A stretch of DNA of 27,812 nucleotides from a virus (IMGVR_UViG_3300017593_000760:1-27812), one strand, 5' to 3'; counted from the stretch's first letter, positions 496 through 23,552 are shown. Numbers and translations: made by a program. Notes: generated by a model not told the origin, from the letters alone.

Positions 496-588
496 TGCTT
501 ATATTTGCACGAGAACAAAATTTTATCGCTGAGCCAATAGTTTTAATCATGTCTCAAGATAAATTGCACCAGAACTCAAAATTGTGCA
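496..588 (-). promoter_or_regulatory. Copy C of the 93-bp promoter/operator module
   Basis: On the plus strand the ends are TGCTTATA (496-503) and ATTGTGCA (581-588), spaced as in the other three copies. Between them, AACAAAATTTTATC and AGTTTTAATC (539-548) align with copy A. Read on the minus strand, GATTAAAACT is the TATA-like element, placing initiation at about 515-525, upstream of the gene starting at 437. This copy is the most divergent, and its upstream box overlaps the 3' end of the gene at 576-869. Confidence 0.65.
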
Positions 589-869
589 TCTGGTTCAATA
601 AGCATGTGCTTCCTTCGCTTAAGGTTCTTACTCGCTATTTCATTAAGAGCAAGAGCGGAATAACCCATGATATCCAGAAGAGTATCTTGAACATAGGGTA
701 AGGCGCTATCCTTCTCTTTCATTGCTAAATTCTTGAGCCTACTGAGTTTAATGGTAAGAATGACATTCACTGCGGTCAAACCGTATTCCTCCCACACTCT
801 ATGAAACGCATCTCCGTATAATTTATTCTTCCTCTCCAATAAATCATTCACCAACTCAATTACAGCCAT
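576..869 (-). CDS. Nmad1/DUF1599-like nucleotide-modification-associated protein
   Basis: The 97-residue protein shows the spacing of the DUF1599 family, also called nucleotide modification associated domain 1: LLERKNKLYGDAFHRVW near the N-terminus, then a helix with KLSRLKNLA, then DTLLDIMGYSALALNEI. Family members are small all-helical proteins related in fold to MazG-like nucleotide hydrolases and are found in phages near nucleotide or base-modifying enzymes; the biochemical role is not settled. The ATG at 869 is preferred over the GTG at 875 because GGAGG lies 7 bases upstream. It directly follows the ClpP-like gene and ends operon 4, inside the next promoter module. Its presence among many methyltransferases fits a DNA or nucleotide modification role (inference). 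Confidence 0.7.
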   Translation of the reverse strand: MAVIELVNDLLERKNKLYGDAFHRVWEEYGLTAVNVILTIKLSRLKNLAMKEKDSALPYVQDTLLDIMGYSALALNEIASKNLKRRKHMLIEPDAQF

Positions 870-871
870 CT

Positions 872-1456
872 TCACACCTCCTCTATTTTATCTATAAGAC
901 CCCAATCCTTTGCTTCTTGCGGGGACATCCACTTCTCCTTCAACCTTATTGTTTCTCTCACTTCCTCCTCTGTCTTGCCACAACGATTGGCTAATATCTT
1001 CACTATTTCATTCGTGATTCTGTTCATCTCGGTAACTTCAGTTTCAAGCTGAGAAGTGGATTCGTTGTGGAAATACACCCAACGTTTGGGTTCGTGTAGC
1101 AAGAATGTAGCATGAGGACGAGCTATACGAATATCACCAGCCTGAAGAATAATCATGGCAGCTGCACTCGCTGCGAGACCCTCAACTATTACACGCACTT
1201 TTATACCAGATTTTGATATCTCTCGTAATGCATCATAAAGAGCAAACGAACCGTGAACTTCTCCACCCTCAGAACACAGCTTCACTGTGAGAGTATCTCC
1301 TTTCTTTAATTTACGTTTAACCTCACTCAGCAACAACAGATACTCCTTTGTTTTGAATTCATCAACCTCTCCGCTGATATGGATTATACCATCTTCTAAT
1401 TCCCGACTCACTATTATGTCCTCTAAACACGTGAAATAATGCTCTTTAACTTCCAT
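872..1456 (-). CDS. ClpP-like serine protease (S14 family)
   Basis: A 194-residue protein with a ClpP/crotonase-fold peptidase layout. The substrate-binding loop CSEGGEVHGSFALYDALR (61-78) corresponds to N-PGG-V-G-AIYD of ClpP; the nucleophile is Ser97 in GLAASAAAM, the histidine is His121 in FLLHEP, and the C-terminal signature WMSPQEAKDWGLID (176-189) is intact. The position equivalent to the third triad residue of bacterial ClpP (Asp in RDRFLS) is Glu174 here. Length is close to ordinary ClpP. In head-tailed viruses, S14 members often act as prohead maturation proteases; in archaea stand-alone ClpP is rare. No scaffold, portal or capsid gene is visible nearby, so a capsid role is only one option; protein turnover is another. 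It overlaps the upstream gene by 11 bases. Confidence 0.85.
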   Translation of the reverse strand: MEVKEHYFTCLEDIIVSRELEDGIIHISGEVDEFKTKEYLLLLSEVKRKLKKGDTLTVKLCSEGGEVHGSFALYDALREISKSGIKVRVIVEGLAASAAAMIILQAGDIRIARPHATFLLHEPKRWVYFHNESTSQLETEVTEMNRITNEIVKILANRCGKTEEEVRETIRLKEKWMSPQEAKDWGLIDKIEEV

Positions 1457-1814
1457 TTTGGATTTCCTCGTGAGTAACCAATAAAATGTAAGGTTTAGAT
1501 GTTCTATTCTTCAAGTCGTTAATAGCCGAGTATATATCTGGATATAGTCTTCTTGTGCTACTCTTCTCCATGCCTATACAGGTTCTATCTGCCTTCACTA
1601 TGATTCGTGGATAATACACGGGACCCTCAATCCAGGCAAAACACCAGTGCTCTTTTTCCTCCACTAAGCACTTGTATTCTATGCCTTCTATTACGGAACA
1701 TGTATCACGTCTGTGATGAAGGACTATCTTGCCATTGGGAAGTCTCGCTACGTCGTTGCCCTTGTTATCCTTGTGAAACACAAGAACCATTTCCTTCTTC
1801 TCTCCTTCTTCCAT
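1446..1814 (-). CDS. Hypothetical protein, about 122 aa
   Basis: Not recognised. The start at 1814 (MEEGEKKEMVLVF) has GAGGAGG 6 bases upstream, better than the earlier in-frame ATG at 1829. The predicted strand-rich N-terminal half (VLVFHKDNKGNDVARLPNGKI, then HHRRDTCSVIEG) resembles a small barrel with three cysteines, but no clear metal site (C..C pair) is present. The C-terminal half contains a charged helix. It lies between a metallophosphoesterase and the ClpP-like protease and is translationally coupled to the latter, so it probably belongs to the same functional block. Confidence 0.6.
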   Translation of the reverse strand: MEEGEKKEMVLVFHKDNKGNDVARLPNGKIVLHHRRDTCSVIEGIEYKCLVEEKEHWCFAWIEGPVYYPRIIVKADRTCIGMEKSSTRRLYPDIYSAINDLKNRTSKPYILLVTHEEIQNGS

Positions 1815-1841
1815 ATTAAACCTCCTCAATAAATATTAGAA

Positions 1842-2477
1842 TTATATCTCTTGGACTTCACCATCTGGATTGACCATCATCAGCTTCGCAGACCTCTTCC
1901 TCGTATCGTATTCTGTCCAGCCGAGAAGAGCTGGTGGGAGAGACCTCTCTATTGCGTATTGCAGTCCCCTTGCCAACGAACCAGTCCTCAAGAGAGTCAC
2001 TCGTTTATCTCCACGCAAGACGTCGAGCTTAGCAAGGATGTGATTGTGTCCCAACGCTATAACATCCGCGTCAATGAACTGAAGGAGTTTCCTGTGTTCA
2101 CTCCAGATGTCCATTGCTGTGCTTCTGCCATGCGCAAAATAGAACTTAACACCATCCACTGTTATCTCATGTGAAGGTTTACCCAAGTATTCCTCATAGA
2201 CATTGAGACCCACCTGATTGAATATCCTGTATTCGTGATTACCCAAGCAATAAGCTATGACGTTCAATTCCCTCGTTATAGTTCTTACCCAGCGCAATTG
2301 AGCCTGTGGCTGTATCTCATTCTCGAATTGCATACCATTGGAGAGTCCACAATCTATCAAGTCACCCATGAGAATTACCTTAGCCCCTCGCCAGTGAGTC
2401 TTGGCTATCTCCTCTATGGTCTCTGGAGAAAGCTCTCCCTGACCTATATGCCAATCCCCATTTAATACCACTCTCAT
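1842..2477 (-). CDS. Calcineurin-like metallophosphoesterase
   Basis: The 211-residue protein carries the complete dinuclear-metal motif series of the calcineurin-like superfamily: GDWHIG (residues 7-12), GDLID (about 38-42), GNHE (about 79-82), an isolated FAHG, and GHNH (about 142-145). These residues bind two metal ions and hydrolyse phosphodiester or phosphomonoester bonds. The architecture is minimal, without the extra domains of Mre11 or SbcD, so a role in nucleic acid or nucleotide hydrolysis is plausible but not shown. The start overlaps the stop of polymerase B (ATGA) and uses GGAGGCGG within the polymerase's last codons, so the two proteins should be made together. This favours a replication-linked job. 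Confidence 0.9.
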   Translation of the reverse strand: MRVVLNGDWHIGQGELSPETIEEIAKTHWRGAKVILMGDLIDCGLSNGMQFENEIQPQAQLRWVRTITRELNVIAYCLGNHEYRIFNQVGLNVYEEYLGKPSHEITVDGVKFYFAHGRSTAMDIWSEHRKLLQFIDADVIALGHNHILAKLDVLRGDKRVTLLRTGSLARGLQYAIERSLPPALLGWTEYDTRKRSAKLMMVNPDGEVQEI

Positions 2478-4501
2478 ATTCCGCCTCCAAATCTATTCAA
2501 GTTGGTTTGGGAAAGAATGTCCTCTATTTCTTTTAGAGGAGTATAAAACCATTTATTAAGGATAGTTCTATAATCAATTTCAGGAAGTTCATCAATTATA
2601 TCCTCATGAATAGCCAAATAGCCAATAGAATTATTCTTAGTTGGGACAATAGGAAGCTTCTCGCCTGCATAATACGGTATGCGATACAATCGCAGTCTGT
2701 TCTTTGCGGCTTTGAGATGAGACGTCTGCACTTTGGGTGAGGTTGAAGAGAGGCGTATCCATTCGGCTATATCCATCACATTCTGCTTCTTTATTTCCTC
2801 TTGCACTTGAGACTTCAAAGCACGTAATTCCTCCCATTTGCTCTTGAGTATATACTCGTATGCCAACATAAGTGCATTCCTGATATACATGGGACATGAC
2901 GTTTTATTCACCACCGTCCCAGTTATCTTCAACTTGCCGTCTTTTGTGATGCCAAAATAGTTCTTCTTCTTATCGTAAAGAAACAAGACATCAAACTCTT
3001 TATCTATATCGAGATTGAATTCCTCGCCCCATGTCTTATGCAATTCCTCATTCAGCTCATTCATTATTTTCACAGGCTCTGGGTGGACTATCATCATTGC
3101 ATCAGTATCTCCCGCTAATATGGGAATGCCTCGTTCTTCTACACGTTTCCAGATATATGTCAGGAGGGCTCGCTCATGTGAAGTTACCTCAGCTGCCAGC
3201 TTCCTGTTATAAAATCGTGATTTTGAATACCCGAGTATCCCTATACAGGCATTAAGTAGGAATTTATATGAGGTATTCCATATCTGACTTTGAGTGTCTC
3301 CTCTTTTCTTGTATAGCTTCTTGTATTCGAGCCTTCTCTCAAACAATTCCCGAATGGTCTCTGTGAGTATGCCTGGATTCCTGATATCCCTATCGGGCGA
3401 GATATTGAAGTGCATAACAATAGATGGGTAGAGTGACGTAAAATCTAACACCGTGACGCCCCGATGCAGACCCTTCTGTGGTTCTCTAACTAGTGCACCT
3501 TTATACTTTTTATGCTTCACTCTTCCCTTATTAGGCAATACATATTTGTTGTGGTATCGCCTCAAGAGATACGCCTCGATGATACTGCTCCTATTCATAA
3601 TGTCTATGGTATTAAGAGGCACAAGATTCTGAAATGAGAAGACCAACTGTGAGAGTTTCAACTTCTCGTCTATTTCCTTAGTGAGGGTTACATCTTCTAT
3701 ACAATGAAGGAGCTCTGGTAGAGATGGGTCTTTCCTCCTTCCGAGCACAAGATAAGCAACGTGGTCAAGGAAATATCGTCCTCCTCGCTCTCCAAATTCT
3801 CGATACGCTCTCATCAGGTCTAATGGCTGACTTTCTCCTATCGTATATTCATCATGGTATTTCCTAAATACGCTCTTGTCTCTGGCACGATTGAACATGT
3901 AGGTTAAATCGAAATTACTTGAGTTCCACCCAATAATCACATCGAAATCCAGCGTCTTACAGAACGAGAAGAAGGACTTCAATAACTGTTGGTCATCATC
4001 AAATACAAAAGCCTTAACGCCGTCTATTGCATAATCTCGTAATACGAAAGGATAATGTCGCTGAGTGAAGCTATCATAAGCATCAATCACGGTGATGGGA
4101 AGGGGAGCATTCTCAGTGTCGAGAGAACCATTTCCTCGCTCCACTTCGATATCAAAATAAAGTATCCTCCTGTTTAATCCAAACGTTAAATTAGAGTCTA
4201 TCAAGTAGCGAGTCAAATAAGGAATGTCAGACTCCATACTAAAACTGACATTTCGTTTTCCTGTCTCAAGGTCTTTTATTGAATTGAATGAAATCTTATC
4301 AAGAGGCTTGTTGTCATAAGAAACGTATCCCTTCTCCCGTGCAACGTGAGGAAATGAAACCTTTTCTTCTGGTCTTACATAGAAATAAGGATACTTTCCG
4401 TTTCGCACTGAGTAGGTTACCTGAGAACCCTCCCGAAACTTCAATTTAACGGAAGGTCTTGAATTCCGTGAACCAATTAGAGAAGCATTCACAAGTTCCA
4501 T
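2474..4501 (-). CDS. polB: Family B DNA polymerase with 3'-5' exonuclease
   Basis: A complete 675-residue polymerase, shorter than cellular archaeal PolB (about 750-800). Exonuclease motifs: Exo I FDIE (Asp117, Glu119), Exo II NSSNFD (193-198), Exo III with Asp270 but His266 where a tyrosine is usual. Polymerase motif A is DFTSLYPS (353-360), motif B KFLLNACIGILGY (413-425), motif C GDTD (464-467), followed by KKKNYFG (511-517). All three metal-binding aspartates of exonuclease and polymerase sites are present. Motif B reads NACIG where most family B enzymes have NSxYG. It is the replicative polymerase candidate of this element. It overlaps both neighbours, the upstream methyltransferase by 13 bases and the phosphoesterase by 4 bases. 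Confidence 0.97.
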   Translation of the reverse strand: MELVNASLIGSRNSRPSVKLKFREGSQVTYSVRNGKYPYFYVRPEEKVSFPHVAREKGYVSYDNKPLDKISFNSIKDLETGKRNVSFSMESDIPYLTRYLIDSNLTFGLNRRILYFDIEVERGNGSLDTENAPLPITVIDAYDSFTQRHYPFVLRDYAIDGVKAFVFDDDQQLLKSFFSFCKTLDFDVIIGWNSSNFDLTYMFNRARDKSVFRKYHDEYTIGESQPLDLMRAYREFGERGGRYFLDHVAYLVLGRRKDPSLPELLHCIEDVTLTKEIDEKLKLSQLVFSFQNLVPLNTIDIMNRSSIIEAYLLRRYHNKYVLPNKGRVKHKKYKGALVREPQKGLHRGVTVLDFTSLYPSIVMHFNISPDRDIRNPGILTETIRELFERRLEYKKLYKKRGDTQSQIWNTSYKFLLNACIGILGYSKSRFYNRKLAAEVTSHERALLTYIWKRVEERGIPILAGDTDAMMIVHPEPVKIMNELNEELHKTWGEEFNLDIDKEFDVLFLYDKKKNYFGITKDGKLKITGTVVNKTSCPMYIRNALMLAYEYILKSKWEELRALKSQVQEEIKKQNVMDIAEWIRLSSTSPKVQTSHLKAAKNRLRLYRIPYYAGEKLPIVPTKNNSIGYLAIHEDIIDELPEIDYRTILNKWFYTPLKEIEDILSQTNLNRFGGGI

Positions 4502-5268
4502 TCTAAATACTCCTCCAAACTTCTTTGATTCCTATCTCGTCCTAAAATTCTTTCTTGTGCTATTTCACAGTATTTTTCTGATATTTCAATGCCTATCCAC
4601 TTACGGTTCAGCCGCTCACATGCCACTGCCGTTGTGCCAGACCCGAGAAAAGGATCCAATACCAGCATGTCTTCTGCTGTATGATTCTTGATAATTCGGG
4701 AGACTAAGTCCAGTGGCTTTTGGTTCTGATGTAACTGTTCAGCGCCAGAGACTCTTCTGAAGAACCAGACATCGGACAGCCTCTTATCAGACACGAACCG
4801 AGAGCGTCCTTTACTTCCATAAATGATCATCTCATACTGCTGCCCATACTGAGCTTCCAAATCCCCTGCCGTCCAGTTGTTCTTTACCCACACTATAATG
4901 TTCTTGATCTTGAATCTGGTCTTAACGTATCTTTTGAACACGTCTACGGTCTTCCACGAACAGAACGTGTATATGGCAGCATTCTTCCGTAGAATCCGGA
5001 ACGCCTCTCTCAGGAAGAACTTTATCAGGCTTGCATGCTTTATCGAATCGTTATATATTGGCGAACAGAACTCATGTCCCCGGTCTTTACGATAATTGGT
5101 CTCGTAGCCTATCAGATAGGGAGGGTCAGCTATCACCAAATCTACACTTTGAGTCGGAATAATGTTCATTACTTTCAGGGAGTTACCACAAAGCAGCACT
5201 CCGTTCTCTGTATGGAAGTAGTGATATTTGCTATCAATCAGTTTCTTTCTTAACTCTTCCCAATTCAT
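4489..5268 (-). CDS. Beta-class DNA methyltransferase (N6-adenine/N4-cytosine), paralog 1
   Basis: The 259-residue enzyme has catalytic motif IV ADPPY (47-51) before SAM-binding motif I DPFLGSGTT (205-213), the order of beta-class amino-methyltransferases. DPPY favours adenine-N6 methylation, although sequence alone does not exclude cytosine-N4. The end IGIEISEKYCEIAQERILG is standard for the family. It shares its N-terminal SKYHYFHT segment and its C-terminus with the adjacent upstream methyltransferase, so the pair arose by tandem duplication and divergence of the target-recognition middle. The start overlaps the previous stop by ATGA. No restriction endonuclease is adjacent, so this is best read as an orphan protective methyltransferase. 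Confidence 0.93.
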   Translation of the reverse strand: MNWEELRKKLIDSKYHYFHTENGVLLCGNSLKVMNIIPTQSVDLVIADPPYLIGYETNYRKDRGHEFCSPIYNDSIKHASLIKFFLREAFRILRKNAAIYTFCSWKTVDVFKRYVKTRFKIKNIIVWVKNNWTAGDLEAQYGQQYEMIIYGSKGRSRFVSDKRLSDVWFFRRVSGAEQLHQNQKPLDLVSRIIKNHTAEDMLVLDPFLGSGTTAVACERLNRKWIGIEISEKYCEIAQERILGRDRNQRSLEEYLEWNL

Positions 5269-5981
5269 TTTAGGAAATTTATTAAGGTCTTTTGGTGTTT
5301 ATCATATCCTAATACCCGCTTCTGGATTATCTCACAATAACGTTCCGAAATCTCAATACATATCCATCTGCGGTTATGCTTCTCGCATGCCACTGCGGTT
5401 ACACCTGTGCCTGCAAACGGATCCAGTATTAATTCTTCTTCCTTAGGACTGCCACGAAGTAGTAATCTTTCCCAAAATTTGAGCGGTTTGGGACATGGAT
5501 GCTCATAGGATTGGTTATCTAACCCTGTTGCCTCTATTATATCGCTTCTCGCTCCGAGTCCTTGAGTTAAGTAGGGGTCCTTACCATACGCGAGTATAGG
5601 TTGCCATTGAGCAAATCCCCACTTGCCTCTTGAGTTCGTCGTCTTATAGACCCAAGCAAGAATCCAATAAGGAGGTGGATAAAGAGAGATGTTAGTGAGA
5701 CCACAGGTTAATAGCATGACTTTGCCTACTCGCACAGCTTGAGGCATGAATTTCTTAATAAGAGCCTTGAGGTTCTCTTTGATATCCTCATAATTATCGT
5801 ATTGCTTTCCTAATGCGTAAGGAGGATCTGTCAAAATCAAATCTATACTTTTATCGGGGAGCATCTTCATGATTTCAATACAGTCCCCGAGAAGCATAAC
5901 TCCTCGATCGGTATGAAAATAATGATATTTGGAGTTAATCAACTCACAATACAATTTATACCAGTCGGTGTGTTCTGTCAT
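5265..5981 (-). CDS. Beta-class DNA methyltransferase, paralog 2, first gene of operon 4
   Basis: A 238-residue enzyme with motif IV TDPPY (51-55) and motif I LDPFAGTGVT (186-195). The N-terminus (INSKYHYFHTDRGVMLLGD) and C-terminus (RRWICIEISERYCEI) match the next gene, but the central target-recognition part is shorter and different, so a distinct recognition sequence is expected. It is the first gene after promoter module copy A, with a leader of about 100 bases. I see no Shine-Dalgarno before the ATG at 5981, although the alignment with its paralog supports this start. The following gene is coupled by ATGA. Confidence 0.92.
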   Translation of the reverse strand: MTEHTDWYKLYCELINSKYHYFHTDRGVMLLGDCIEIMKMLPDKSIDLILTDPPYALGKQYDNYEDIKENLKALIKKFMPQAVRVGKVMLLTCGLTNISLYPPPYWILAWVYKTTNSRGKWGFAQWQPILAYGKDPYLTQGLGARSDIIEATGLDNQSYEHPCPKPLKFWERLLLRGSPKEEELILDPFAGTGVTAVACEKHNRRWICIEISERYCEIIQKRVLGYDKHQKTLINFLK

Positions 5982-6062
5982 TTAGAAACAACCGGAACAG
6001 AATAACATAGAAGTTTCCATTGAGCATCCTTCCCTGCGTTATTACATCAATTATTGCTCACT

Positions 6063-6155
6063 TGCACATATTTGGCACAGAACAAAATATTTCATCTTGG
6101 ACATAGTTTTATATAGGCTCTAATAGATAATTTGCATGACGCTTATATATGTGCA
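6063..6155 (-). promoter_or_regulatory. Copy A of the 93-bp promoter/operator module
   Basis: Plus-strand ends are TGCACATA (6063-6070) and TATGTGCA (6148-6155), perfect inverted repeats of each other. The minus strand carries CCTATATAAAACTATG (TATA box at about 6107-6117), so initiation should be near 6080-6085, about 100 bases upstream of the methyltransferase start at 5981. A further ATTTGCATGA box is at about 6130-6139. The whole 5982-6190 spacer is otherwise without a gene that I can support. Confidence 0.75.
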
Positions 6156-6190
6156 TCTCATAGGAAATTTACAATATTGCATTGAACATT

Positions 6191-6412
6191 TCAGACTCGT
6201 CTAATACGAATTCCATGAATAGACTTTAAAGCCTCTATTCGAGATTTCACCGTTTCTTCATCGTCTCCAACTACGCGAATCCATATACAATCCAAACGAT
6301 CTCGTCGGTCTGCCAGTGTGTCTTTTCCGTCAAACCAACTATCTATACTTAGAAGACAGGAGAGCCTAATCTTGCTAATCAAATCCGCAACATTAGCATA
6401 GAACTGTTTCAT
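6191..6412 (-). CDS. Hypothetical protein, about 73 aa, last gene of operon 3
   Basis: Not recognised. The ATG at 6412 (MKQFYANVADL) is the likely start; a TTG at 6424 overlapping the previous stop (TTGA) is possible. The C-terminal 45 residues, DRLDCIWIRVVGDDEETV and following, look like a strand-helix-strand unit of a small ferredoxin-like or ACT-type fold, but this is shape only, with no family signature. The gene follows a 58-residue helical protein, and the next 200 bases hold promoter module A. Confidence 0.55.
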   Translation of the reverse strand: MKQFYANVADLISKIRLSCLLSIDSWFDGKDTLADRRDRLDCIWIRVVGDDEETVKSRIEALKSIHGIRIRRV

Positions 6413-6420
6413 GCTATCTA

Positions 6421-6597
6421 TCAATAAAGAGGGAAAAGGTCGAGTTTTTCACGTAAATCTTCGGGAGTTAATTCGCCATGCTTTCTCTGAAACTCTTCTA
6501 CCTTCTTGGGAAGTTCTGGGTCTGACCAAACCTTATCCAAAATTTCTTCTATTTCCTTTATCTTCTTCTTTCTTTGAGATACCCTATCTTCTTTCAT
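6421..6597 (-). CDS. Small charged helical protein, 58 aa
   Basis: Not recognised. The start at 6597 (MKEDRVSQRKKK) has AGGAAG about 7 bases upstream and is preferred over the in-frame ATG at 6633. The protein is almost entirely helical and highly charged (KKIKEIEEILDKVW, then ELPKKVEEFQRKHGEL), with no cysteines or hydrophobic segment. It could be a small coiled-coil partner protein. It is separated from the methyltransferase upstream by an 83-base gap. Confidence 0.55.
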   Translation of the reverse strand: MKEDRVSQRKKKIKEIEEILDKVWSDPELPKKVEEFQRKHGELTPEDLREKLDLFPLY

Positions 6598-6680
6598 TTT
6601 AATCTTCCTTTCTTGATTATTTATAAATATCATCTCCCAATAAAATCCTTTATTTGGTATTGTCCTTAAAGTGTAATCTC

Positions 6681-7874
6681 CTAAAATCCTATTCTCTCTA
6701 TCACGGAGGGCTCTTCACCTAACTTTGTCTGTGCGACTAAAGGCTTGAGCCTCTGGTATGCCATCTCACAATATTCCTCGTTTGAGTCTATTTGAATGCT
6801 GTTGAATCCCGTTTGTTCGGCAACTACTCCCACTGTCCCAGTTCCTGCGAAAATATCCATCACAACTCCATTTGGAGGACATCCCGCAAGAAGACAGGAG
6901 GACACAAGAGATCGTGGGAATGCAGCCCAATGTGGAAGAGAACTCGGCTCAAGATTAATTTGCCAAACGTTAGGACGGTTAGCTCCGGTTAAATCTCCCT
7001 GATTAACACGCTCTGCGAAGTGACGTGCTCCCGTATGTTTCATAGCACCTTGAATATCTCCTTTGGTTGGATTGAATGCGTGTCTAACTCGTTCTCGTGT
7101 TGCTTCTTTAAGAGGTGTTCGTATGGCGTCTTGATCCCAATAGTAACGTGGACTTTTTACCAATACGTATACGGGCTCATAAGTGAATGCACATCTATCG
7201 TTTGCAGATGTGGGCATAGCAGAACCAATGGTTGTATTAGTTTTGGAAATCCAAATTTTCTTTGCCCAAATTATCCTGTCTCGAAGTCTCAATCCTAACT
7301 CATCTACGCATCTGGCAATAAATCTTTCATTTTGTAAACATAAGGACTTGGGAGGAATTTCATTAGTGACACATCTTCCTTGATGCTCTCTATATTTGAA
7401 GCTATTCCATCCCATTCCTCCTGTTCTTACGTTTGAACTTGAGGCATAAGAATCTCCTTGGTTCCAAAATATCACTCCCGTCTTCTTGAGAACCCTCTTC
7501 AGTTCTTTCATTATGTCTAAGAGATGATTGATATACATCTCCAAAGATGGCTCGAGTCCAAGTTGTCCATAAAAAGCTCCGCATCTCTTACAGAATTTCC
7601 CGCTTGAAAAACTCTTATGTTCTGCATCCTTCGTGACTGTGGCTATATCAATTATGTTTGAGCTTATGCCGTGATGGGGCTTACTAAATTTTCTTGAGCA
7701 ATCTTCCCATTCGTGCTCACAAGAAGGATTGCCATTCCAGATTGTGTATGTGCTTTCTCCATAATCTCTTAACCCTCCCCAGTAAGGTGGAGAAGTAACA
7801 ACACAATCAATGCTTTCATTAGGTAATGTCTTCAACACATCCAGCACATGTCCACAAATTATCGTGTGCTTCAT
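6681..7874 (-). CDS. Beta-class DNA methyltransferase with TSPPYW motif (N4-cytosine type), zinc-knuckle insert
   Basis: The 397-residue enzyme starts with a GHVLDVLKTLP segment, then catalytic TSPPYW (27-32), the variant most often associated with cytosine-N4 methylation, and near the end SAM motif DIFAGTG (340-346). A cysteine/histidine-rich insertion (Cys52, His54, Cys59, and Cys95/Cys98 in KFCKRCG) leads into QLGLEPSLEMY, a layout familiar from phage and archaeal members of this family, and probably binds zinc. The start overlaps the stop of a 36-residue zinc-ribbon gene (ATGA). It is the fourth amino-methyltransferase here. Target sequence is not predictable from sequence alone. Confidence 0.93.
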   Translation of the reverse strand: MKHTIICGHVLDVLKTLPNESIDCVVTSPPYWGGLRDYGESTYTIWNGNPSCEHEWEDCSRKFSKPHHGISSNIIDIATVTKDAEHKSFSSGKFCKRCGAFYGQLGLEPSLEMYINHLLDIMKELKRVLKKTGVIFWNQGDSYASSSNVRTGGMGWNSFKYREHQGRCVTNEIPPKSLCLQNERFIARCVDELGLRLRDRIIWAKKIWISKTNTTIGSAMPTSANDRCAFTYEPVYVLVKSPRYYWDQDAIRTPLKEATRERVRHAFNPTKGDIQGAMKHTGARHFAERVNQGDLTGANRPNVWQINLEPSSLPHWAAFPRSLVSSCLLAGCPPNGVVMDIFAGTGTVGVVAEQTGFNSIQIDSNEEYCEMAYQRLKPLVAQTKLGEEPSVIERIGF

Positions 7875-9157: not shown

Positions 9158-9190
9158 ACTGCCTTCTCCAATAACAATTAAGACTTACGT

Positions 9191-12364: not shown

Positions 12365-12370
12365 CTTCTC

Positions 12371-14154: not shown

Positions 14155-14168
14155 TTATCTTCCTCCTA

Positions 14169-14348: not shown

Positions 14349-14350
14349 CC

Positions 14351-14383
14351 TCAATATTATCCTTCTGTTTCAGGAGTTGTGGA
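14351..14383 (-). repeat. Copy 1 of a 33-bp bipartite repeat
   Basis: TCAATATTATCCTT, then 8 unrelated bases, then GGAGTTGTGGA on the plus strand. The same two blocks with the same 8-base spacing occur at 16040-16072. On the minus strand it spans the end of the 89-aa gene and the start region of the 59-aa gene. Confidence 0.65.
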
Positions 14384-14626: not shown

Positions 14627-14763
14627 TTCTCCTTCTCGTATATTACATAGAACGTATCGCCATCCTCGTGTGGGACTATATTAATCGAAATGATATTGAC
14701 GCTGGGGTCATTAAGAAGCCGTTCCACTAAACTCAACTGATTAAAAGCTCTTATTAATTTCAT
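14614..14763 (-). CDS. Small hypothetical protein, 49 aa
   Basis: Begins MKLIRAFNQLSLVERLL and continues through a strand-forming segment (NIISINIVPHEDGDTFYVIY) to a stop that overlaps the next gene. GGAGG lies 11 bases upstream, inside the end of the preceding gene, which it overlaps by 23 bases. It fills what would otherwise be a 114-base gap in a densely packed operon, which supports it. The compact helix-strand-strand pattern is protein-like; no family is recognised. Confidence 0.65.
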   Translation of the reverse strand: MKLIRAFNQLSLVERLLNDPSVNIISINIVPHEDGDTFYVIYEKEKWDI

Positions 14764-15010
14764 TATCGTTCTTTCCTCCTTTCCCGAAATTTGTGAATGG
14801 TGAAGTCATAATCTCTTCCATTGTCTCCTTATCGTTCCTATAATATGCTTCCATAAACTCTTGCTCCGCTTTCGCATCTATCTCCTCTTGATGAACTTCA
14901 CATGGATTTTCTCCTCTTTCACACATCTTTTGGAACTCTTCCAGGGATAATTTACATCTCCCTTCTTTCGAATCCCAATATTTGCATTTGATTGGATGAT
15001 TACAACTCAT
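14741..15010 (-). CDS. Cysteine-rich small protein, 89 aa
   Basis: Starts MSCNHPIKCKYWD and has cysteines at about 3, 9, 19, 30 and 37 (GRCKLSLEEFQKMCERGENPC), a likely zinc-binding N-terminal domain, followed by an acidic helical tail. An in-frame GTG at 15040 would add 10 charged residues but lacks a ribosome site. The Cys pattern suggests a metal-bound recruitment module. The last 23 bases overlap the 49-residue gene. Confidence 0.65.
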   Translation of the reverse strand: MSCNHPIKCKYWDSKEGRCKLSLEEFQKMCERGENPCEVHQEEIDAKAEQEFMEAYYRNDKETMEEIMTSPFTNFGKGGKNDNEINKSF

Positions 15011-15054
15011 TTTCTTCTCATCGCCTTCCCTTCTCTCCACCTATACTACAAATC

Positions 15055-15255
15055 TTAAAACTGTTCATTTAAAAAAGATTTGCAACAGTCCGTTCTGATT
15101 CTTTTCCCCATTTGATCTCCTATTTCAATCTCAAGAACTTCTTTAAATGCATGAATTTTACCACAATAAAATTCTTTATTCTCTCTTGTGACGGATTCTT
15201 CGTACATCCTTCTTGCTAAATCAAGCCTTGATAATATTTCATTCTTATCTAACAT
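15055..15255 (-). CDS. Small helical protein, 66 aa
   Basis: Not recognised. AGGAG lies upstream and the ATG overlaps the previous stop (ATGTTAG). It is two helices (EILSRLDLARRMYEES and CGKIHAFKEVLEIEIG), and a C-terminal CC pair is present. The LDLARRMYEE-to-GKIHAFKEVLE hairpin resembles the short two-helix proteins that are common in phages, but no function can be assigned. Confidence 0.6.
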   Translation of the reverse strand: MLDKNEILSRLDLARRMYEESVTRENKEFYCGKIHAFKEVLEIEIGDQMGKRIRTDCCKSFLNEQF

Positions 15256-15527
15256 TCTCTATCTCCTTCATCCAGTATAGCTTTCCAGTTCCTTTCCCGA
15301 ATTGCCTTCCTTAAACTCGTAAGTTGATTCCATTTGAGAGCAAGAAGGAACCCAAGAAGAATCAGTGCCAACCCATAATATTCGTGTCCTAATAGCTCAA
15401 TATCAAATCCTTGAAATCGTATGAAATGCTCCCAAAGGAGGAAGTTTCCCACAGCCAATAACGCTCCAGATACAAGCCAACGATAATATTGGAAGCATGG
15501 TTTTGCAAAATCACTTCTTCCGGTCAT
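15249..15527 (-). CDS. Small membrane protein, two predicted helices, 92 aa
   Basis: Hydrophobic segments at about 16-35 (RWLVSGALLAVGNFLLW) and 49-65 (YYGLALILLGFLLALKW) flank a short loop; the C-terminal 25 residues are charged and likely cytoplasmic. No signal cleavage site is evident. GGAGAGGAAG precedes the ATG, which overlaps the prior stop by ATGA. Membrane proteins of this form in viruses include holin-like or envelope proteins, but nothing here supports one of these specifically. Confidence 0.65.
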   Translation of the reverse strand: MTGRSDFAKPCFQYYRWLVSGALLAVGNFLLWEHFIRFQGFDIELLGHEYYGLALILLGFLLALKWNQLTSLRKAIRERNWKAILDEGDREC

Positions 15528-15787
15528 TCTTCCTCTCCTGTTGGCAATATAACTTTAGGCTTGCTATATCCCGTTGCCGTGAAGCCTTCCTTTAATGCTA
15601 ATCTCCTCGCTATAACCTCTATCAAGTCTAAGAGCTGCTTCTCACTTAAACAAGCATATTCTCCTCCGATAGTGAATTGTATGCAATATCTGTTTCCTTC
15701 AGGACCCACAAATGCAGTCAACTCTAAGTCTTTAGTGTTCCCATATCCCTCCTTCATAGTCCTATATATCCTAATGTCTTGGCTCAT
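15524..15787 (-). CDS. Hypothetical protein, 87 aa
   Basis: Not recognised. Predicted strands (LELTAFVGPEGNRYCIQFTI) and a helix (EKQLLDLIEVIARRLALKE) suggest a small alpha/beta domain. The start overlaps the previous gene by 17 bases, with a GAAGTGGA purine stretch upstream. It is coupled to the membrane protein downstream by ATGA. Confidence 0.6.
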   Translation of the reverse strand: MSQDIRIYRTMKEGYGNTKDLELTAFVGPEGNRYCIQFTIGGEYACLSEKQLLDLIEVIARRLALKEGFTATGYSKPKVILPTGEEE

Positions 15788-16022
15788 GTTCCACTTCCAT
15801 CATAAAACATATCTTCTCTCGTATTTCATTTAAAGACATCCTATTGAATTCTTCTACACTTACTCCATCCCTATAATGGTAATAATACACTTCGGGATAT
15901 CTTTGATAGCTAGTGAGCAATACTCTTTCTACAAATGCTTTCTCTCCCTTCTTAATTATTGAACCACAGGCTTCACACGTGTGTTCTTTTCTTACCCGAA
16001 CTATTTTTATCCATCTGCTCAT
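15771..16022 (-). CDS. Small zinc-finger-like protein, 83 aa
   Basis: The N-terminal VRKEHTCEACGSIIKKGEKA matches a treble-clef-type pattern seen in many phage proteins (KEHxCxxCgxxIxkGe), with further His/Cys candidates in YYYHYRDG and KICFMM. It probably binds one zinc ion. GGAGG lies upstream of the ATG, which directly follows a TAA. It is the first well-supported gene after promoter module D. Confidence 0.7.
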   Translation of the reverse strand: MSRWIKIVRVRKEHTCEACGSIIKKGEKAFVERVLLTSYQRYPEVYYYHYRDGVSVEEFNRMSLNEIREKICFMMEVEHEPRH

Positions 16023-16130
16023 TTATAAAATACCTCCTTCAATATTATCCTTGCATATTAGGAGTTGTGGAGTTCGGGGAGTGCCATTCTTAATTCTGTC
16101 CCGTGAGAAAATGTGTCTAAGACCTAACAT
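16023..16130 (-). CDS. Possible 35-aa leader ORF
   Basis: An open frame from the ATG at 16130 (MLGLRHIFSRDRIKNG) to a TAA that directly touches the next ATG. It has no good ribosome site, and its 3' half overlaps the repeated 33-bp sequence, so it may be a chance frame in the leader of operon 3. The same DNA in another frame reads as the tail of a gene like the one at 14357. Confidence 0.25.
   Translation of the reverse strand: MLGLRHIFSRDRIKNGTPRTPQLLICKDNIEGGIL
16040..16072 (-). repeat. Copy 2 of the 33-bp bipartite repeat
   Basis: TCAATATTATCCTT, 8 different bases (GCATATTA), then GGAGTTGTGGA, the same layout as at 14351. The minus-strand side leads into the ribosome site of the zinc-finger gene at 16022. 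It is probably a duplicated gene-end plus leader segment. Confidence 0.65.
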
Positions 16131-16145
16131 GGATTTCTCACTGTT

Positions 16146-16238
16146 TGCATATATCCTTTGCTCACGCAAATTTCCTCATCTCCTTAATATTTTTCTATGT
16201 CCCAAACATAAAATTTCGTTATATCCCAAATATGTGCA
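16146..16238 (-). promoter_or_regulatory. Copy D of the 93-bp promoter/operator module
   Basis: Ends are TGCATATA (16146-16153) and TATGTGCA (16231-16238). The middle carries CATAAAATTTCG, which aligns with the ATAAAATTTGC of copy B, and on the minus strand GACATAGAAAAATATTAAGG is the TATA-like core. It precedes the long replication operon beginning at 16022. The TATA-like element is weaker than in A and B. The spacer 16131-16251 holds no supportable gene. Confidence 0.65.
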
Positions 16239-16251
16239 TCTGGTGCAAATC

Positions 16252-16746
16252 TTACATAAAATTCTTCTCTATCTCATCAATCGAAAAGAGAGTCAATACT
16301 CCAATTATCATTTCAAGAACTTCTTTTTTCTTTCTCTCATCGCCAAAAACAATCGCTCCTTTTACAGAAGCGGTTCGTAGCATTCCATCGGTAAGAGGGA
16401 CACCCTCCATCGTAACCTCTTTGAGTCTATTATACAATGATTTATCATAGGTAGAATGAATAGTAAAACTAAAAACATTCTTTTTCTCATCGTGTATGGT
16501 GTGTATTCTTCTAACGCAGAGAGAAAAGAAAGAGCCATCTATATTAAGAATCAACGAAGCATTTATTTTGTCCAAGCAGTATGTTTGGGGAGGAGGAGCA
16601 GCAGAATCAATAATAGAATGACGATAAATTGAGTACAGGAATTTCTTTGAGAACGGAAGAAAATACGCATCCCACATTTCAAGATTAGAGGAGTTTTCCT
16701 GGAAGAAAAATTCAAAATTTGGAGTAGCGAAAAATACAATTCCCAT
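16252..16746 (-). CDS. Tandem paralog array member 1 (164 aa, unknown family)
   Basis: Last of five consecutive genes encoding about 165-residue proteins. It starts MGIVFFATPNFEFFF, has a strand-helix body, and ends with the shared segment KGAIVFGDERKKKEVLEM and LTLFSIDEIEKNFM. Compared with members 2 and 3, the common features are an N-terminal strand with aromatic residues (FAT.N..F.F), a FS..FL..I.R helix and the C-terminal [GV]-I-V-F-.-D-E...E.....G.L.L.S..EI...FM block. No catalytic motif is visible. No membrane segment or signal peptide. The family is not recognised. Confidence 0.75.
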   Translation of the reverse strand: MGIVFFATPNFEFFFQENSSNLEMWDAYFLPFSKKFLYSIYRHSIIDSAAPPPQTYCLDKINASLILNIDGSFFSLCVRRIHTIHDEKKNVFSFTIHSTYDKSLYNRLKEVTMEGVPLTDGMLRTASVKGAIVFGDERKKKEVLEMIIGVLTLFSIDEIEKNFM

Positions 16747-16747
16747 C

Positions 16748-17236
16748 TCACATAAACTCCTTGACGATTTCTTCGGGTGAATAAAGATTTAATAGCCCAG
16801 CAACAATCTCAGAAATCTCTTTCTTGTCTTCTCTTTCATCATAAAAGACGATGACACCTGTTATATCTCGAGCAATTCTTATTTCTCCCTCACCCCCTTT
16901 CATATAATAATCGGTTAAGCTACTTAAATATTCATAAATTTCACCATTATATTCGGTGAAGAAATCAAGTTCATAACCTTTCATACTACATTCTCTTACA
17001 GGAAACGAAACCAGCGAATGATTTATATTGAGGATTAAAATTAAATTTGCATCCTTTATAGTGAATCTTGGGAGGAAAGGACCATCATTACGGAATGACT
17101 TGTCTAAACTCCGGGAGATAGCAGAGAGAAACTCTTCTGAAAAGGAGAGACACCACCGATCGAAAATCAGGAGGGTGTGGTCTTTATTCTTAAAGAGGAA
17201 TCGAAGATTTTTCGTAGCAAAGAGTATAAATTTCAT
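16748..17236 (-). CDS. Tandem paralog array member 2 (162 aa, unknown family)
   Basis: Starts MKFILFATKNLRFLF at 17236, right after the previous gene's TAA; an upstream TTG is less likely. The C-terminal block ITGVIVFYDEREDKKEIS and LLNLYSPEEIVKEFM aligns closely with members 1 and 3. The middle is diverged, suggesting that the shared part is a framework and the middle is adapted to a partner or position. No ribosome site at ideal spacing, so coupling to the previous gene is likely. Confidence 0.78.
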   Translation of the reverse strand: MKFILFATKNLRFLFKNKDHTLLIFDRWCLSFSEEFLSAISRSLDKSFRNDGPFLPRFTIKDANLILILNINHSLVSFPVRECSMKGYELDFFTEYNGEIYEYLSSLTDYYMKGGEGEIRIARDITGVIVFYDEREDKKEISEIVAGLLNLYSPEEIVKEFM

Positions 17237-17237
17237 A

Positions 17238-17729
17238 TTACATAAATTTTTCCTCAATTTCTTTAGGTGAGAGAACGCTTAATAGACCACTTCCAATTTC
17301 AATAGCCTCACTTTGCTCTGCTTTATCACAATAAATCAAAAGACCCGTGATGCCACAACGCATTCTCACTTCCCAAATTTTTCCGTTTCTCATTCGTCGT
17401 ATTCCTCCTATCAAGAATTCTCCCAACTCTTCGGGCGGGGCTTGGCGACACCCTACGATAAATTCTATTCCCTTTCGACATCGGATACAGTTTACAGACA
17501 TTGATAATATCTCACTATCCTTGTTGAGAAGAGTGAAACCTTCCACAGAGTGAATCTCAAATTGAGAAGGCAAAGACACCTCCTTAATATTTAATTTTCG
17601 CTTGTGAAAATAAATCTGTGAAAGAAATCTTTTGAAGAGAGGAAGATCAAAATAATCAATGAGGTAAAGAGTATTGCGTTTGCCAAATCTAAATATTAAG
17701 TTTTTGGAGTAAAACGGAATTGTTCTCAT
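17238..17729 (-). CDS. Tandem paralog array member 3 (163 aa, unknown family)
   Basis: Begins MRTIPFYSKNLIFRF and ends CGITGLLIYCDKAEQSEA and LLSVLSPKEIEEKFM, clearly related to member 2. It contains extra cysteines in the middle (VNCIRCRKG, VGCRQ), absent in the others. It overlaps member 4 by ATGA, so the array is one translational unit. Confidence 0.78.
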   Translation of the reverse strand: MRTIPFYSKNLIFRFGKRNTLYLIDYFDLPLFKRFLSQIYFHKRKLNIKEVSLPSQFEIHSVEGFTLLNKDSEILSMSVNCIRCRKGIEFIVGCRQAPPEELGEFLIGGIRRMRNGKIWEVRMRCGITGLLIYCDKAEQSEAIEIGSGLLSVLSPKEIEEKFM

Positions 17730-18220
17730 GTCTTTCTTAACAAAGTTAGCATCCCTATTCCAATGTGCTTCGTGTCTTCTATACTCTCTTCTCTCTCCCG
17801 TTTTATGATTATCGCTTTAAAATCCCAAAGTTCATAACAAAAGCCTTCTATTATTTTATTTGTATAAAGAGAATTTAAGGGACAAGTCGCCATAACCTTG
17901 TGTCTCATGCTTTCATATTCATTATTATTCGGTATGACACACTGGAGATCCGCTTGTCGAAATCTTATTTCCTTCCTATAATATGTGTCTCTCCAGAGAC
18001 GAATCTCTTTTAGCCGAGCAATAAAAAATCTATCTTGGACGCTAAACATTATAAAATAACTTCCCTCGTGTATTTCTGTTGTTGGAAGAATAGAGAGATT
18101 GTTAATAGCAGGCTGCCTCCACATATATCCTAATCCGATTAAGAAGGTTTGCCATGTCTCTTTTGTGAATGGAAGCGGAGGAAGAACTACAAATTCAGAA
18201 GGAGATGAAATAATAATCAT
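17726..18220 (-). CDS. Tandem paralog array member 4 (164 aa, diverged)
   Basis: More distant from members 1-3 but similar in size and with the same closing pattern: CYELWDFKAIIIKRERE then HIGIGMLTLL. Its ELWDF motif is shared with member 5. The N-terminus lacks the FAT/YSKN start. It is coupled to both neighbours by ATGA overlaps. The homology to members 1-3 is my reading by eye and is less certain than the link to member 5. Confidence 0.7.
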   Translation of the reverse strand: MIIISSPSEFVVLPPLPFTKETWQTFLIGLGYMWRQPAINNLSILPTTEIHEGSYFIMFSVQDRFFIARLKEIRLWRDTYYRKEIRFRQADLQCVIPNNNEYESMRHKVMATCPLNSLYTNKIIEGFCYELWDFKAIIIKREREESIEDTKHIGIGMLTLLRKT

Positions 18221-18711
18221 TCCCGCAATATGAGATATCCAACACCTAAATTTTTTATGTTCTCTTCTGAATCCTCGTTAATGGGAAGCAATACACCATT
18301 AAAGTCCCAAAGTTCAATCTTCCATTTTCGTATCTTCCAAAATCCTTCTCCATGAGATTTGAAGAAGAGTAGCTTTATTAGTTCATCCCATCCTTCTCGA
18401 TCTGCTAATTCTATATCAAAAGTAAATTCAGCAAAATCTTGATATCTTTCTAATTCTCCACCCAGAATCTTCGCTATGAAATATCCTCGTTCCTTTTTCC
18501 AATTCGGAAACACAAGATTTTTTACCTCAAATACTACATAATAATTTATTAGTAGCCCTGAGGACATCAATTCTGAAAGTTTTGCCAGATGTTTATTCCA
18601 CCCAAAAGAGTAAACCACGATTTGCATCGTCTTCCTAAAGCGATTTGCACTTAATTCTGCTCTATATCCATAAATGGGAATTGCCTCATTCACTTCTCCC
18701 TTTACCACCAT
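18217..18711 (-). CDS. Tandem paralog array member 5 (about 164 aa, diverged)
   Basis: Ends IELWDFNGVLLPINED then NLGVGYLILRE, aligning with member 4. The start is uncertain: ATG at 18711 (MVVKGEVNEA) overlaps the vWA gene by 26 bases, while a GTG at 18693 would give an 8-base overlap next to GGGAGAA, and an ATG at 18732 lies further inside. The body is strand-rich with aromatic residues (NYYVVFEVKNLVFPNW). It is the first array member after the vWA gene. Confidence 0.7.
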   Translation of the reverse strand: MVVKGEVNEAIPIYGYRAELSANRFRKTMQIVVYSFGWNKHLAKLSELMSSGLLINYYVVFEVKNLVFPNWKKERGYFIAKILGGELERYQDFAEFTFDIELADREGWDELIKLLFFKSHGEGFWKIRKWKIELWDFNGVLLPINEDSEENIKNLGVGYLILRE

Positions 18712-19861
18712 CGTAAAAGACGATTTTACCAAATGGAAGCTTCTTGTGATATCTACGTAATTTCTCTGGCACTAACCAAACTACTGGGAAATCGGGAGAT
18801 TTGTTAGGTGGAGTCCCAAATGTATCGGTAACATATATCAAGCCTCGTAATTCAGGATGATTCTCCATCTCCTTAAAGACAGGTCTGAAATCAGTTCCAC
18901 CTCCGCCTTGCCACTTGATTTTATCAAGTTCTTCAGGTTCTCGTATCACGTGTTTCTCGTATAATCTCGCATCACATTGTAACAGGAGGACTTCAAGTTC
19001 GCCTCTGAAACAACTAAACAAGAACTTCATTCCTGATTTAAATTCCGATAGCAATTCCTCATCTATGGAACCACTCGTATCAATAGCTACTCCAATATGT
19101 AATTTGTTACGATTCCGGATAGGAGGCATCAAGATAGGAGGATACCTTCGTTTATTTATTCTCTTGAAGTCTGGCTGGCTAAAGCTCTGTTCAAGCACAA
19201 AAGACGATATGATTTCACTGATAGGTAATGGAGGGTAGAGCAAATCGTGAACCTCTCGACGTAAACCTTTAGGAAGATTCCCTTGCATATATGCTCTTAA
19301 CAGAGACTGTCTTAGCACTTGACTCATCACATTGTCTTTTTTGCTGTGTTTCCATACCTTGTGAGATTCTAATCGCTTCTTTGCTTCTTCACTTAGGGAG
19401 AGTTCTGGGATAGTGGTCATCCCTCGCCTCTCCTTGAGAAGTTCCCTGTATATCTGTTCAAATGTCATGCCGTCGAATCGTGAGTCGTATAACATACCAA
19501 GACGTAACCGATTGAATTCCTCCTTGATTATTGAATTAACAGCATAATCCGCAGCCATATTCGCTATCTGCCATTCTGCATCGTTTCGAGCTATTCGCAT
19601 CCTGGAGTCACCAAGATGATGCAAAAGGAGATGCAGGTATTCGTGAGCCAAATCAATCACGAGTTCTTGTGGAGATGATTCATTAAGATATTCCTCATTC
19701 ACATAGATTCGTTCCCCATCTGTGCAAGCTGCTTCAATCTTCTCACCTTCCAATTCGTATGGTGGAGGAAGTGGAACAACTGGAATTCCGAGTATTCCAG
19801 ACCAGAATGGCTTTTCACGTAAGAACATGAATTTAGCTCTCCGTATCTTCTTTTCGTTCAT
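18686..19861 (-). CDS. DUF2201-type putative metallopeptidase plus vWA-like domain
   Basis: The 391-residue protein has a zinc-peptidase-like N-terminal domain with HEYLH (73-77), and AEWQIANMAADYAVN (about 95-109) that may give the third ligand. The C-terminal vWA-like domain has a MIDAS site: DTSGS (261-265), GGGGTD (319-324) and VTD (344-346). This two-domain layout is the DUF2201 family, nearly always encoded with a MoxR-type AAA+ ATPase, which is found a few genes upstream here. The pair is thought to act as a metal-dependent chaperone or maturation machine for partner complexes. GAAGG precedes the ATG. The five paralogs that follow are candidate clients. Confidence 0.9.
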   Translation of the reverse strand: MNEKKIRRAKFMFLREKPFWSGILGIPVVPLPPPYELEGEKIEAACTDGERIYVNEEYLNESSPQELVIDLAHEYLHLLLHHLGDSRMRIARNDAEWQIANMAADYAVNSIIKEEFNRLRLGMLYDSRFDGMTFEQIYRELLKERRGMTTIPELSLSEEAKKRLESHKVWKHSKKDNVMSQVLRQSLLRAYMQGNLPKGLRREVHDLLYPPLPISEIISSFVLEQSFSQPDFKRINKRRYPPILMPPIRNRNKLHIGVAIDTSGSIDEELLSEFKSGMKFLFSCFRGELEVLLLQCDARLYEKHVIREPEELDKIKWQGGGGTDFRPVFKEMENHPELRGLIYVTDTFGTPPNKSPDFPVVWLVPEKLRRYHKKLPFGKIVFYDGGKGRSE

Positions 19862-19900
19862 ATTAAACCTTCAATCATACAAGCCCCTAACCCCAATCCC

Positions 19901-20121
19901 CTAATACTCCCCTAATAAGCATAAGGAAAGAAGTGAGTCATATTCTTCCTTTTCTTCCTCTTCTCTCGTAACGGGCTTTCCATCGGGCGCTTCAATGTTC
20001 TCATCAAAAGCATCAAGGTTCGTATCATAAAATCGCATATATGTGAATTCTCTCCGTCTGATTTCCTCGTTAAATAGTAATACTTCGTAACTCCACCTTT
20101 GGTTATGTCAAATTCGTTCAT
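19901..20121 (-). pseudogene. Probable frameshifted small gene (about 70 aa)
   Basis: A ribosome site (GAGGAAG) and ATG at 20121 start a frame MNEFDITKGG, but this frame soon becomes an unnatural run rich in Met, Arg and Lys ending at 19912. The overlapping frame from 20107 to the TAG at 19901 reads like normal protein (SYEVLLFNEEIRRREF, then FYDTNLDAFDENIEAPDGK, then EEEKEEYDSLLSLCLLGEY) but has no start codon at its beginning. A one-base change near 20105-20121 would join the ATG to this frame. Either a real frameshift, a programmed shift, or a sequence error. The product family is unknown. Confidence 0.5.
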
Positions 20122-20130
20122 CTTCCTCAT

Positions 20131-20244
20131 TTAAAGTTTGTTTCCGCATATATCACACACTAATTCTCCATTAACCTTTCGAGCTGTTACATATCGTTCA
20201 CAATATTCACACCAATAAGCGCCTCTTGCTTCCATCGCTTCCAT
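20131..20244 (-). CDS. Tiny zinc-ribbon protein, 37 aa
   Basis: Begins MEAMEARGAYWCEYCERYV and ends LVCDICGNKL, giving two CxxC pairs, a compact zinc ribbon. GAGGTGG lies 6 bases upstream, an ideal ribosome site, and the TAA is adjacent to the next ATG. It is the second tiny zinc ribbon here (the other is at 7871-7981). A nucleic-acid- or protein-binding accessory role is likely; the partner is unknown. Confidence 0.8.
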   Translation of the reverse strand: MEAMEARGAYWCEYCERYVTARKVNGELVCDICGNKL

Positions 20245-20278
20245 TTTTATCCACCTCTATTCATTTCTCAATCTGTTT

Positions 20279-20356
20279 TTACCATTCCCCTATCATCTCT
20301 TCTGCAAGGCTCGTATAACCTCCGCTACTTATTACGATAAAATCTCTAATTGTCAT
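20279..20356 (-). CDS. Possible 25-aa small protein
   Basis: MTIRDFIVISSGGYTSLAEE and five more residues. It overlaps the end of the preceding gene by 11 bases, as other real junctions here do, and fills the gap before the zinc-ribbon gene. The composition is protein-like but the length makes it uncertain. Confidence 0.35.
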   Translation of the reverse strand: MTIRDFIVISSGGYTSLAEEMIGEW

Positions 20357-20591
20357 CTTTAATTGTATCTATGAGTCTTAACATCCAAAGTAGTGCTTGC
20401 TCTACGCCTCTCCAGTAGGGACTTTCTTCGTGATTTCTTGCATGTTGGAGCATCTCATTAATTTCTTCTTCATTTCGGAGTTGTTGAGTTGTTATATTCG
20501 GGAAGAAGCACGAGTTGCTTCGTGCTTTTACCAAAAGAATATCTCCAGGTTTCCAGCCAAACATACGCTTCGTTTCTCTTAGGGAAGACAT
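20346..20591 (-). CDS. Hypothetical protein, 81 aa
   Basis: Not recognised. Starts MSSLRETKRMFGWKPGDIL and contains a helical C-terminal part (EEINEMLQHARNHEESP, then GVEQALLWMLRLIDTI). The start lies inside the end of a tiny membrane-peptide gene (13-base overlap), so they are coupled. The first 35 residues, WKPGDILLVKARSNSCFF, look like a short strand pair. Confidence 0.6.
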   Translation of the reverse strand: MSSLRETKRMFGWKPGDILLVKARSNSCFFPNITTQQLRNEEEINEMLQHARNHEESPYWRGVEQALLWMLRLIDTIKDDN

Positions 20592-20689
20592 GATGCTACC
20601 TCATTGAAATAGCTATTGATAACACGAGTTATTAGATACAATGAGAAGAGTGCGACTCCCACTATAAGCGTTAAGAGGTATAGCACCAT
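20579..20689 (-). CDS. Tiny membrane peptide, 36 aa, first gene of operon 2
   Basis: MVLYLLTLIVGVALFSLYLI followed by a short polar tail ending EVASCLP. One membrane helix covers about residues 2-20. It starts about 60 bases downstream of the predicted initiation site of module B and overlaps the next gene by 13 bases. No strong ribosome site is visible. It could be a small membrane regulator, or a leader peptide. Confidence 0.5.
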   Translation of the reverse strand: MVLYLLTLIVGVALFSLYLITRVINSYFNEVASCLP

Positions 20690-20727
20690 CCACTATTCAT
20701 CGTCTATTTTACTCATTTCCTCTCACA

Positions 20728-20819
20728 TGCACATAAATGCAATATAACAAAATTTGTGTCCGAGACATACTTTTATATTAGCTTTGGGATAAAATTTGCA
20801 TGAGCTTCATCTATGTGCA
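20728..20819 (-). promoter_or_regulatory. Copy B of the 93-bp promoter/operator module
   Basis: Ends TGCACATA (20728-20735) and TATGTGCA (20812-20819) are perfect inverted repeats, 92 bases end to end. The minus strand has CTAATATAAAAGTATG as TATA box (about 20770-20780), giving initiation near 20745-20750. It aligns along its length with copy A (AACAAAAT, GACATA, TTTTATAT, ATTTGCATGA, TGTGCATCTCAT). It drives the vWA/paralog operon. Confidence 0.75.
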
Positions 20820-23545: not shown

Positions 23546-23552
23546 ATATAAT

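Follow-up and report, generated by a model that had tools for sequence, protein, structure and literature searches.

An inverted composite module at the heads of operons in a group of archaeal-like viruses, a probable shared operator

The 27,812-base virus record IMGVR_UViG_3300017593_000760, which is probably a fragment, appears to come from an uncultured tailed virus of heat-loving archaea and is called the window here, carries four copies of a module of 92 or 93 bp, each at the head of an operon, and related copies stand at the heads of gene blocks in other viruses of the same group. We consider the module to be probably an operator used throughout the virus genome, situated over or next to the promoter of each operon, through which one oligomeric regulator would control the operons together, because its place, its repetition, its symmetry and its constraint all fit such a role.

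Recurrence of the module at operon heads

A preliminary description of the window, made from its sequence alone, had proposed four copies, and all were located exactly where it had put them, on the minus strand. Module A (496-588, 93 bp) heads an operon whose first gene has a conserved start codon at 458, as set by alignment with two relatives, G006 and L008. Module B (6063-6155, 93 bp) heads an operon of two methyltransferase genes followed by genes for a family B DNA polymerase (PolB), a phosphoesterase and ClpP (5981 down to 576); module C (16146-16238, 93 bp) stands at the head of the long replication operon, which runs from 16022 down to 6191, and module D (20728-20819, 92 bp) at that of an operon containing a vWA/metallopeptidase gene and a set of paralogs (20591 down to 16252). 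When the bipartite pattern of end boxes was searched for across the window, six strand-matches were obtained and all six fell within modules, against a mean of 0.0 and a maximum of 0 in 100 shuffles. The box TGCACATA occurs five times in the window and every time inside a module (shuffle mean 0.63). Recovery by hidden Markov model (HMM) was done in both directions, and a model trained on the G006 copies only matched the window at these four places alone (E 1.2e-19 to 4e-16).

Relatives were drawn from several metagenomes by PolB, terminase and capsid searches together with a tight DNA pattern. When the viral collection was scanned with a loose pattern, the matches listed were mostly due to chance, and it was the tighter pattern with the HMM that separated the true relatives, the long ones being G006 (71.9 kb), G010 (81.8 kb) and G015 (80.7 kb). 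With an HMM built on the four copies of the window, seven matches were obtained in G006, five in G010 and four in G015 (E 8e-19 to 0.03); G015 has a fifth copy at 77784, which only the full HMM brings out (E 1e-7). The relatives' copies are all at the heads of gene blocks, one of them (G010, 61-155) lying inside a doubtful open reading frame (ORF) of 58 amino acids. Modules A, B, C and D each have an ortholog at the same operon head in G006 (A at 5934-6026, C at 20702-20795, D at 26126-26217), and orthologs of module B are also present in the relatives L007, L011 and L013.

The reach of the module is also wider than was first seen from the window. In G006, the operon that follows module A contains NrdD and a radical-SAM gene that is NrdG-like, the copy at 2365 heads one with an RNA ligase and a dCTP-deaminase-like gene, and a weak copy at 35003 heads a block near the right-hand end of the minus arm. 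The copy at 58278 heads a plus-strand operon that begins with a scaffold-like protein of 134 amino acids and a capsid-like protein; this copy, which precedes the second capsid operon, is found in six further records as well (G010, G015, G011, L170, L196 and L226). The suggestion that the operons form one regulon is thus extended by the relatives, in which a constrained shared module recurs at orthologous operon heads as an apparent regulon. In G010 and G015, module B is absent together with two small ORFs, and its methyltransferase gene abuts the upstream methyltransferase gene: the module is present where an operon begins and absent where two operons are fused.

Constraint was measured between the window and G006, the box identities being sums over modules A to D made from the alignment output. 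Outer boxes are identical at 80 of 96 positions (83%) and inner boxes at 119 of 137 (87%), in comparison with 120 of 227 four-fold degenerate sites in PolB (53%) and with 32-63% identity in the leaders between module and start codon. Because the boxes are kept so much better than either, the orthologous modules are taken to be maintained by selection, mostly at the boxes.

The genes around the modules are nearly all on the minus strand of the window (8,554 amino acids called on the minus strand vs 167 on the plus strand). Besides PolB, the DNA methyltransferases, the ClpP-like protein and the phosphoesterase, they include a RadA/KaiC-like ATPase, a DUF2201 vWA/metallopeptidase protein and an AAA ATPase. 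The first gene after module B (5265-5981, minus) encodes a DNA methyltransferase-like protein of 238 amino acids, the first after module C (15771-16022, minus) a protein of 83 amino acids that is zinc-ribbon-like by inspection, and the first G006-conserved gene after module D (20346-20591, minus) a protein of 81 amino acids with no assigned function. Adjoining the vWA/metallopeptidase gene, at 16252-18732, are tandem paralogs of about 165 amino acids that belong to no assigned family, a representative of which had no Pfam match. The gene neighbours of module B differ among relatives; the two small ORFs beside it in the window (6191-6633; 77 and 70 amino acids) vary in presence, and gene content next to modules turns over in this way.

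Inverted half-sites and the central TATA-like box

When the copies are aligned by half, each module resolves into two inverted composite half-sites around a variable AT-rich centre. Going inward, a half-site consists of a flank of CACCA or CTCA type, TT or GA, an outer box TGCACATATTTG, about six variable bases, and an inner box near AACAAAATTTTATC or ATGCAAATTTTATC, and this consensus is found on both sides; the module measures 93 bp, or about 113 bp if the symmetric flanks are counted. In module B the half-site alignment places, on the start-codon side, the outer box TGCACATATTTG at 6063-6074 (plus) and the inner box AACAAAATATTT at 6081-6092 (plus), and on the far side, inverted, the inner box ATGCAAATTATC at 6126-6137 (minus) and the outer box TGCACATATATA at 6144-6155 (minus). 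The end boxes that had been described earlier are therefore parts of larger inverted half-sites, with an inner AACAAAATTTTATC-like box and a CACCA/CTCA flank. They had been called inverted repeats in A and B, which is true of B, where the match is perfect (8/8); A has only 4/8, while D also reaches 8/8 and C 7/8. Compared with its own reverse complement over 143 bases, a copy is 38-56% identical. The distance between the end boxes, earlier given as about nine turns, is 85 bp from centre to centre, or about eight helical turns.

A TATA-like box had been described in the middle of the module, and it is clear in B (TTTTATATA, 6107-6115, plus) and in D (TTTTATATT, 20771-20779, plus), whereas A and C do not exceed background. 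With an archaeal box-A matrix set by hand and compared with background over 16 copies, four copies lie clearly above the 95th percentile: B and D of the window, and B and E of G006. The canonical TATA reading, TTTATATA, is not on the strand of the downstream genes but on the other one, and in G006 B the gene strand scores above the 95th percentile too. Because only 4 of the 16 copies exceed background and the best reading faces away from the genes, the TATA is not the constant part of the module; the boxes are. A promoter with a central TATA is a possible reading rather than an established one. A leaderless mode of transcription, in which the downstream outer box would act as the TATA, was considered and set aside, as the distance from box to start codon runs from less than 20 to more than 120 nt with no common scheme. 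Scans for sigma-70 promoters and terminators were uninformative (41 promoter-like matches vs 52.2 in shuffles); the virus looks archaeal. As a separate observation, a second short repeat, TCCACAACTCCT-N8/9-AAGGATAATATTGA, stands before two start codons in the window (14351-14383 and 16039-16071, minus) and before one in G006 (20627, minus), and is possibly a translational or leader element.

It could be argued that the module is simply a conserved strong core promoter, with elements up- and downstream of it for host factors, no viral regulator, and a symmetry that is incidental. This would agree with its invariable position at operon heads, with the TATA-like centre of B, D and their G006 relatives, and with the failure to recognise a regulator in the window; in other archaeal viruses, moreover, it is common for early genes to share promoter sequence around a core (PMC11065993). 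However, the best-kept parts of the module are the inverted outer and inner boxes rather than the TATA and the transcription factor B recognition element (BRE) of a core, two composite half-sites exceed what a core promoter needs, and the strict outer-box pattern has no match in host genome contigs. We therefore regard a bare core promoter as unlikely.

A putative common regulator and other explanations

For the shared operator that we favour, one can envisage a single DNA-binding protein, encoded by the virus or by its host, that would bind both half-sites as an oligomer. With box centres 85 bp apart, the oligomer would sit on one face of the DNA, and the bound protein might wrap, loop or coat the promoter between the half-sites, so that the replication, nucleotide-metabolism, vWA/AAA and second-capsid operons would be switched together. 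The looping or dimeric binding that had been suggested before fits the dyad geometry and would be compatible with it. By analogy with the viral regulators F55 and SvtR, repression seems slightly more likely than activation.

Several observations weigh against a common operator at the promoter. In addition to the inconstancy of the central TATA among the copies and the outward direction of its canonical reading, several intergenic gaps have no module; the statement that the modules occupy exactly the four larger gaps did not hold, as two called gaps, one of 224 bp (23418-23641) and one of 215 bp (20131-20345), are without one, and module A runs into the upstream ORF, covering its final 13 bp. 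Nor is there a module at the first late (terminase) operon. Furthermore, the capsid-operon module of G006 fits better when reversed relative to transcription (48.1 vs 35.5 bits, scored with an HMM from minus-strand modules only). Finally, in agreement with the preliminary description, no regulator was recognised among the window proteins scanned, and none of these gave a ribbon-helix-helix (RHH) match.

Outside the window there is one candidate, a protein of about 320 amino acids that is predicted to end in a winged helix and has a long helical region, and which is kept in G006, G010, G015 and a further relative, G018. In G018 a module (7123-7243) lies roughly 420 bp upstream of the candidate gene. 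The AlphaFold model of the protein is of low overall confidence (predicted local distance difference test, pLDDT, 67; predicted template modelling score, pTM, 0.32), its structure matches to winged-helix proteins are weak with none at E <= 0.001, and an alignment search confirmed no relatives of the candidate, probably on account of short patterns and a long candidate list. As a regulator of the module this putative winged-helix protein is a lead only. Its gene is inverted between genomes, at 34613-35587 (plus) in G010 and 35493-36470 (minus) in G006.

There is precedent for such an arrangement. In the Sulfolobales viruses SIRV2, SIFV and SMV2, a conserved regulatory sequence is shared before many transcription units, and its SMV2 version contains inverted repeats presumed to be recognised by a repressor (PMC11065993). 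Like the SIRV2/SMV2 sequences, the module recurs ahead of a number of transcription units within a single genome (four copies in the window, seven in G006, and five in both G010 and G015). It differs in that their constant part is the TATA/BRE core whereas that of the module is the inverted flanking boxes and not the TATA, and in that theirs serves small early genes of anti-defence type whereas the module heads operons that contain PolB, methyltransferase, NrdD, vWA or capsid genes. Among archaeal viral regulators, AvtR, with some eight potential sites and protection of about 100 nt, both represses and activates, while SvtR, an RHH protein, and F55 of SSV1 also act at several sites (PMC5569661). 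The putative regulator of the module would likewise be one viral protein acting at several promoters of its own genome, although the consensus sites of F55 (a tandem ATAGATAG) and of SvtR (ATnnTTCAAnAnnnnnAAAATG), when compared by eye, differ from that of the module. What seems new here is the combination of a constant part made of an inverted pair of flanking boxes with targets that take in replication and capsid operons alike.

All modules run in the same direction in genome coordinates even though the capsid-operon copy serves the opposite strand. Together with the reversed fit of that copy, this is weak evidence that the module might function independently of its orientation relative to transcription, weak because the module is a near-palindrome and a single locus is involved. 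A constant genome orientation could also be expected of dispersed, iteron-like sites for replication initiation, partition or packaging. We think this quite improbable, as there are five to seven scattered copies per genome, each at an operon head, as the near-palindrome leaves orientation only weakly defined, and as the orientation argument again comes down to one locus.

The terminal inverted repeats, and the way in which module B and its two small ORFs come and go among relatives, are also what one might expect of a mobile or recombinational repeat, either similar to a miniature inverted-repeat transposable element or marking a boundary of cassette exchange, that is tolerated between operons as harmless. 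Such an origin has little in its favour because the copies are old, constrained and orthologous: A to D correspond between the window and G006, with boxes far better kept than neutral sites, and the copies differ so greatly among themselves as to exclude recent spread. In addition, they are always on the 5' side of an operon, and no recent near-identical copies with target duplications were seen. Least probable of all is a function of the transcribed palindrome as a long inter-operon hairpin that is cleaved or stabilises mRNA, like the RNase III sites of phage T7: although some copies fold well beyond shuffles (z -8.35 for G006 X, -4.61 for G006 B and -3.84 for window D) and the flanks show a few concerted changes (C-G to U-A, one pair), the fold is not conserved (z 0.10 for window B, in disagreement with its ortholog G006 B; z -0.26 for G006 A and -1.18 for window A), pairing over 14 copies is barely above that of shuffles (64.8% vs 63.1%) with the inner helix only 45.8% paired, and a search of Rfam gave no match.

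The virus group and the place of the module in its biology

The relatives of the window virus are probably Ekchuahviridae-like. GBV301 and GBV302 are Methanophagales viruses assigned to the Ekchuahviridae (PMC9894754), in the description of which promoters or transcription are not mentioned. The family is marked by two divergent HK97-type capsid genes, each accompanied by a protease gene. G006 may share this layout, with a protease-like gene close to each of its two capsid-like genes, although its capsid (PF25209) and protease (PF04586, PF09979) matches are weak; the window has no structural genes. In G006 the structural arm is separate from the enzymatic one, and PolB, NrdD, PhoU-like, terminase and tape-measure genes are present. 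ThyX was not found with PF02511, which sets these viruses apart from GBV301 and GBV302.

A link to Thermococcales has been made for two genomes of the Ekchuahviridae (PMC12934983), and it is possible that the host here is something other than the anaerobic methanotrophic archaea of group 1 (ANME-1). In a search for the host or for integrated copies, the outer-box pattern had no match in genome contigs and the capsid protein no relative there; among isolated phages, module B and the capsid protein were both without a match, and PolB was only about 24% identical to that of haloviruses. Two further features of the group may be recorded. Between the minus enzymatic and plus structural arms lies a long, poorly coding stretch with GGTATGAATTCACACC-like repeats (G006 36471-37982; G010 34153-36850), which is possibly an origin or control region. 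After the terminase gene there is a gap of nearly 1 kb (G006 41843-42820; G010 40705-41694), with short frames that are 60-70% conserved among G006, G010 and G015, and it may hold a missed gene or a conserved non-coding element.

How genes are regulated is virtually uncharted for tailed viruses whose archaeal hosts are uncultured and thermophilic or anaerobic, and a regulon defined by sequence, with a clear operator, leads directly to tests in vitro, in which the boxes could be used as bait for the regulator. With them, the limits of operons could also be predicted in relatives known from metagenomes, and fragments of viruses of this group would be easier to recognise. Whether most operons of such a virus, those for early replication and for capsid included, are gated by a single orientation-tolerant operator of about 100 bp, of nucleoprotein type, with the half-sites rather than the core promoter as its constant part, is a more doubtful proposition, which we put forward tentatively; if so, it would be a genome-wide master switch of a kind that, in a non-exhaustive reading of the open literature, may not have been described for archaeal tailed viruses. 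In any event, the module allows the coordination of replication and capsid genes to be asked about in these viruses.

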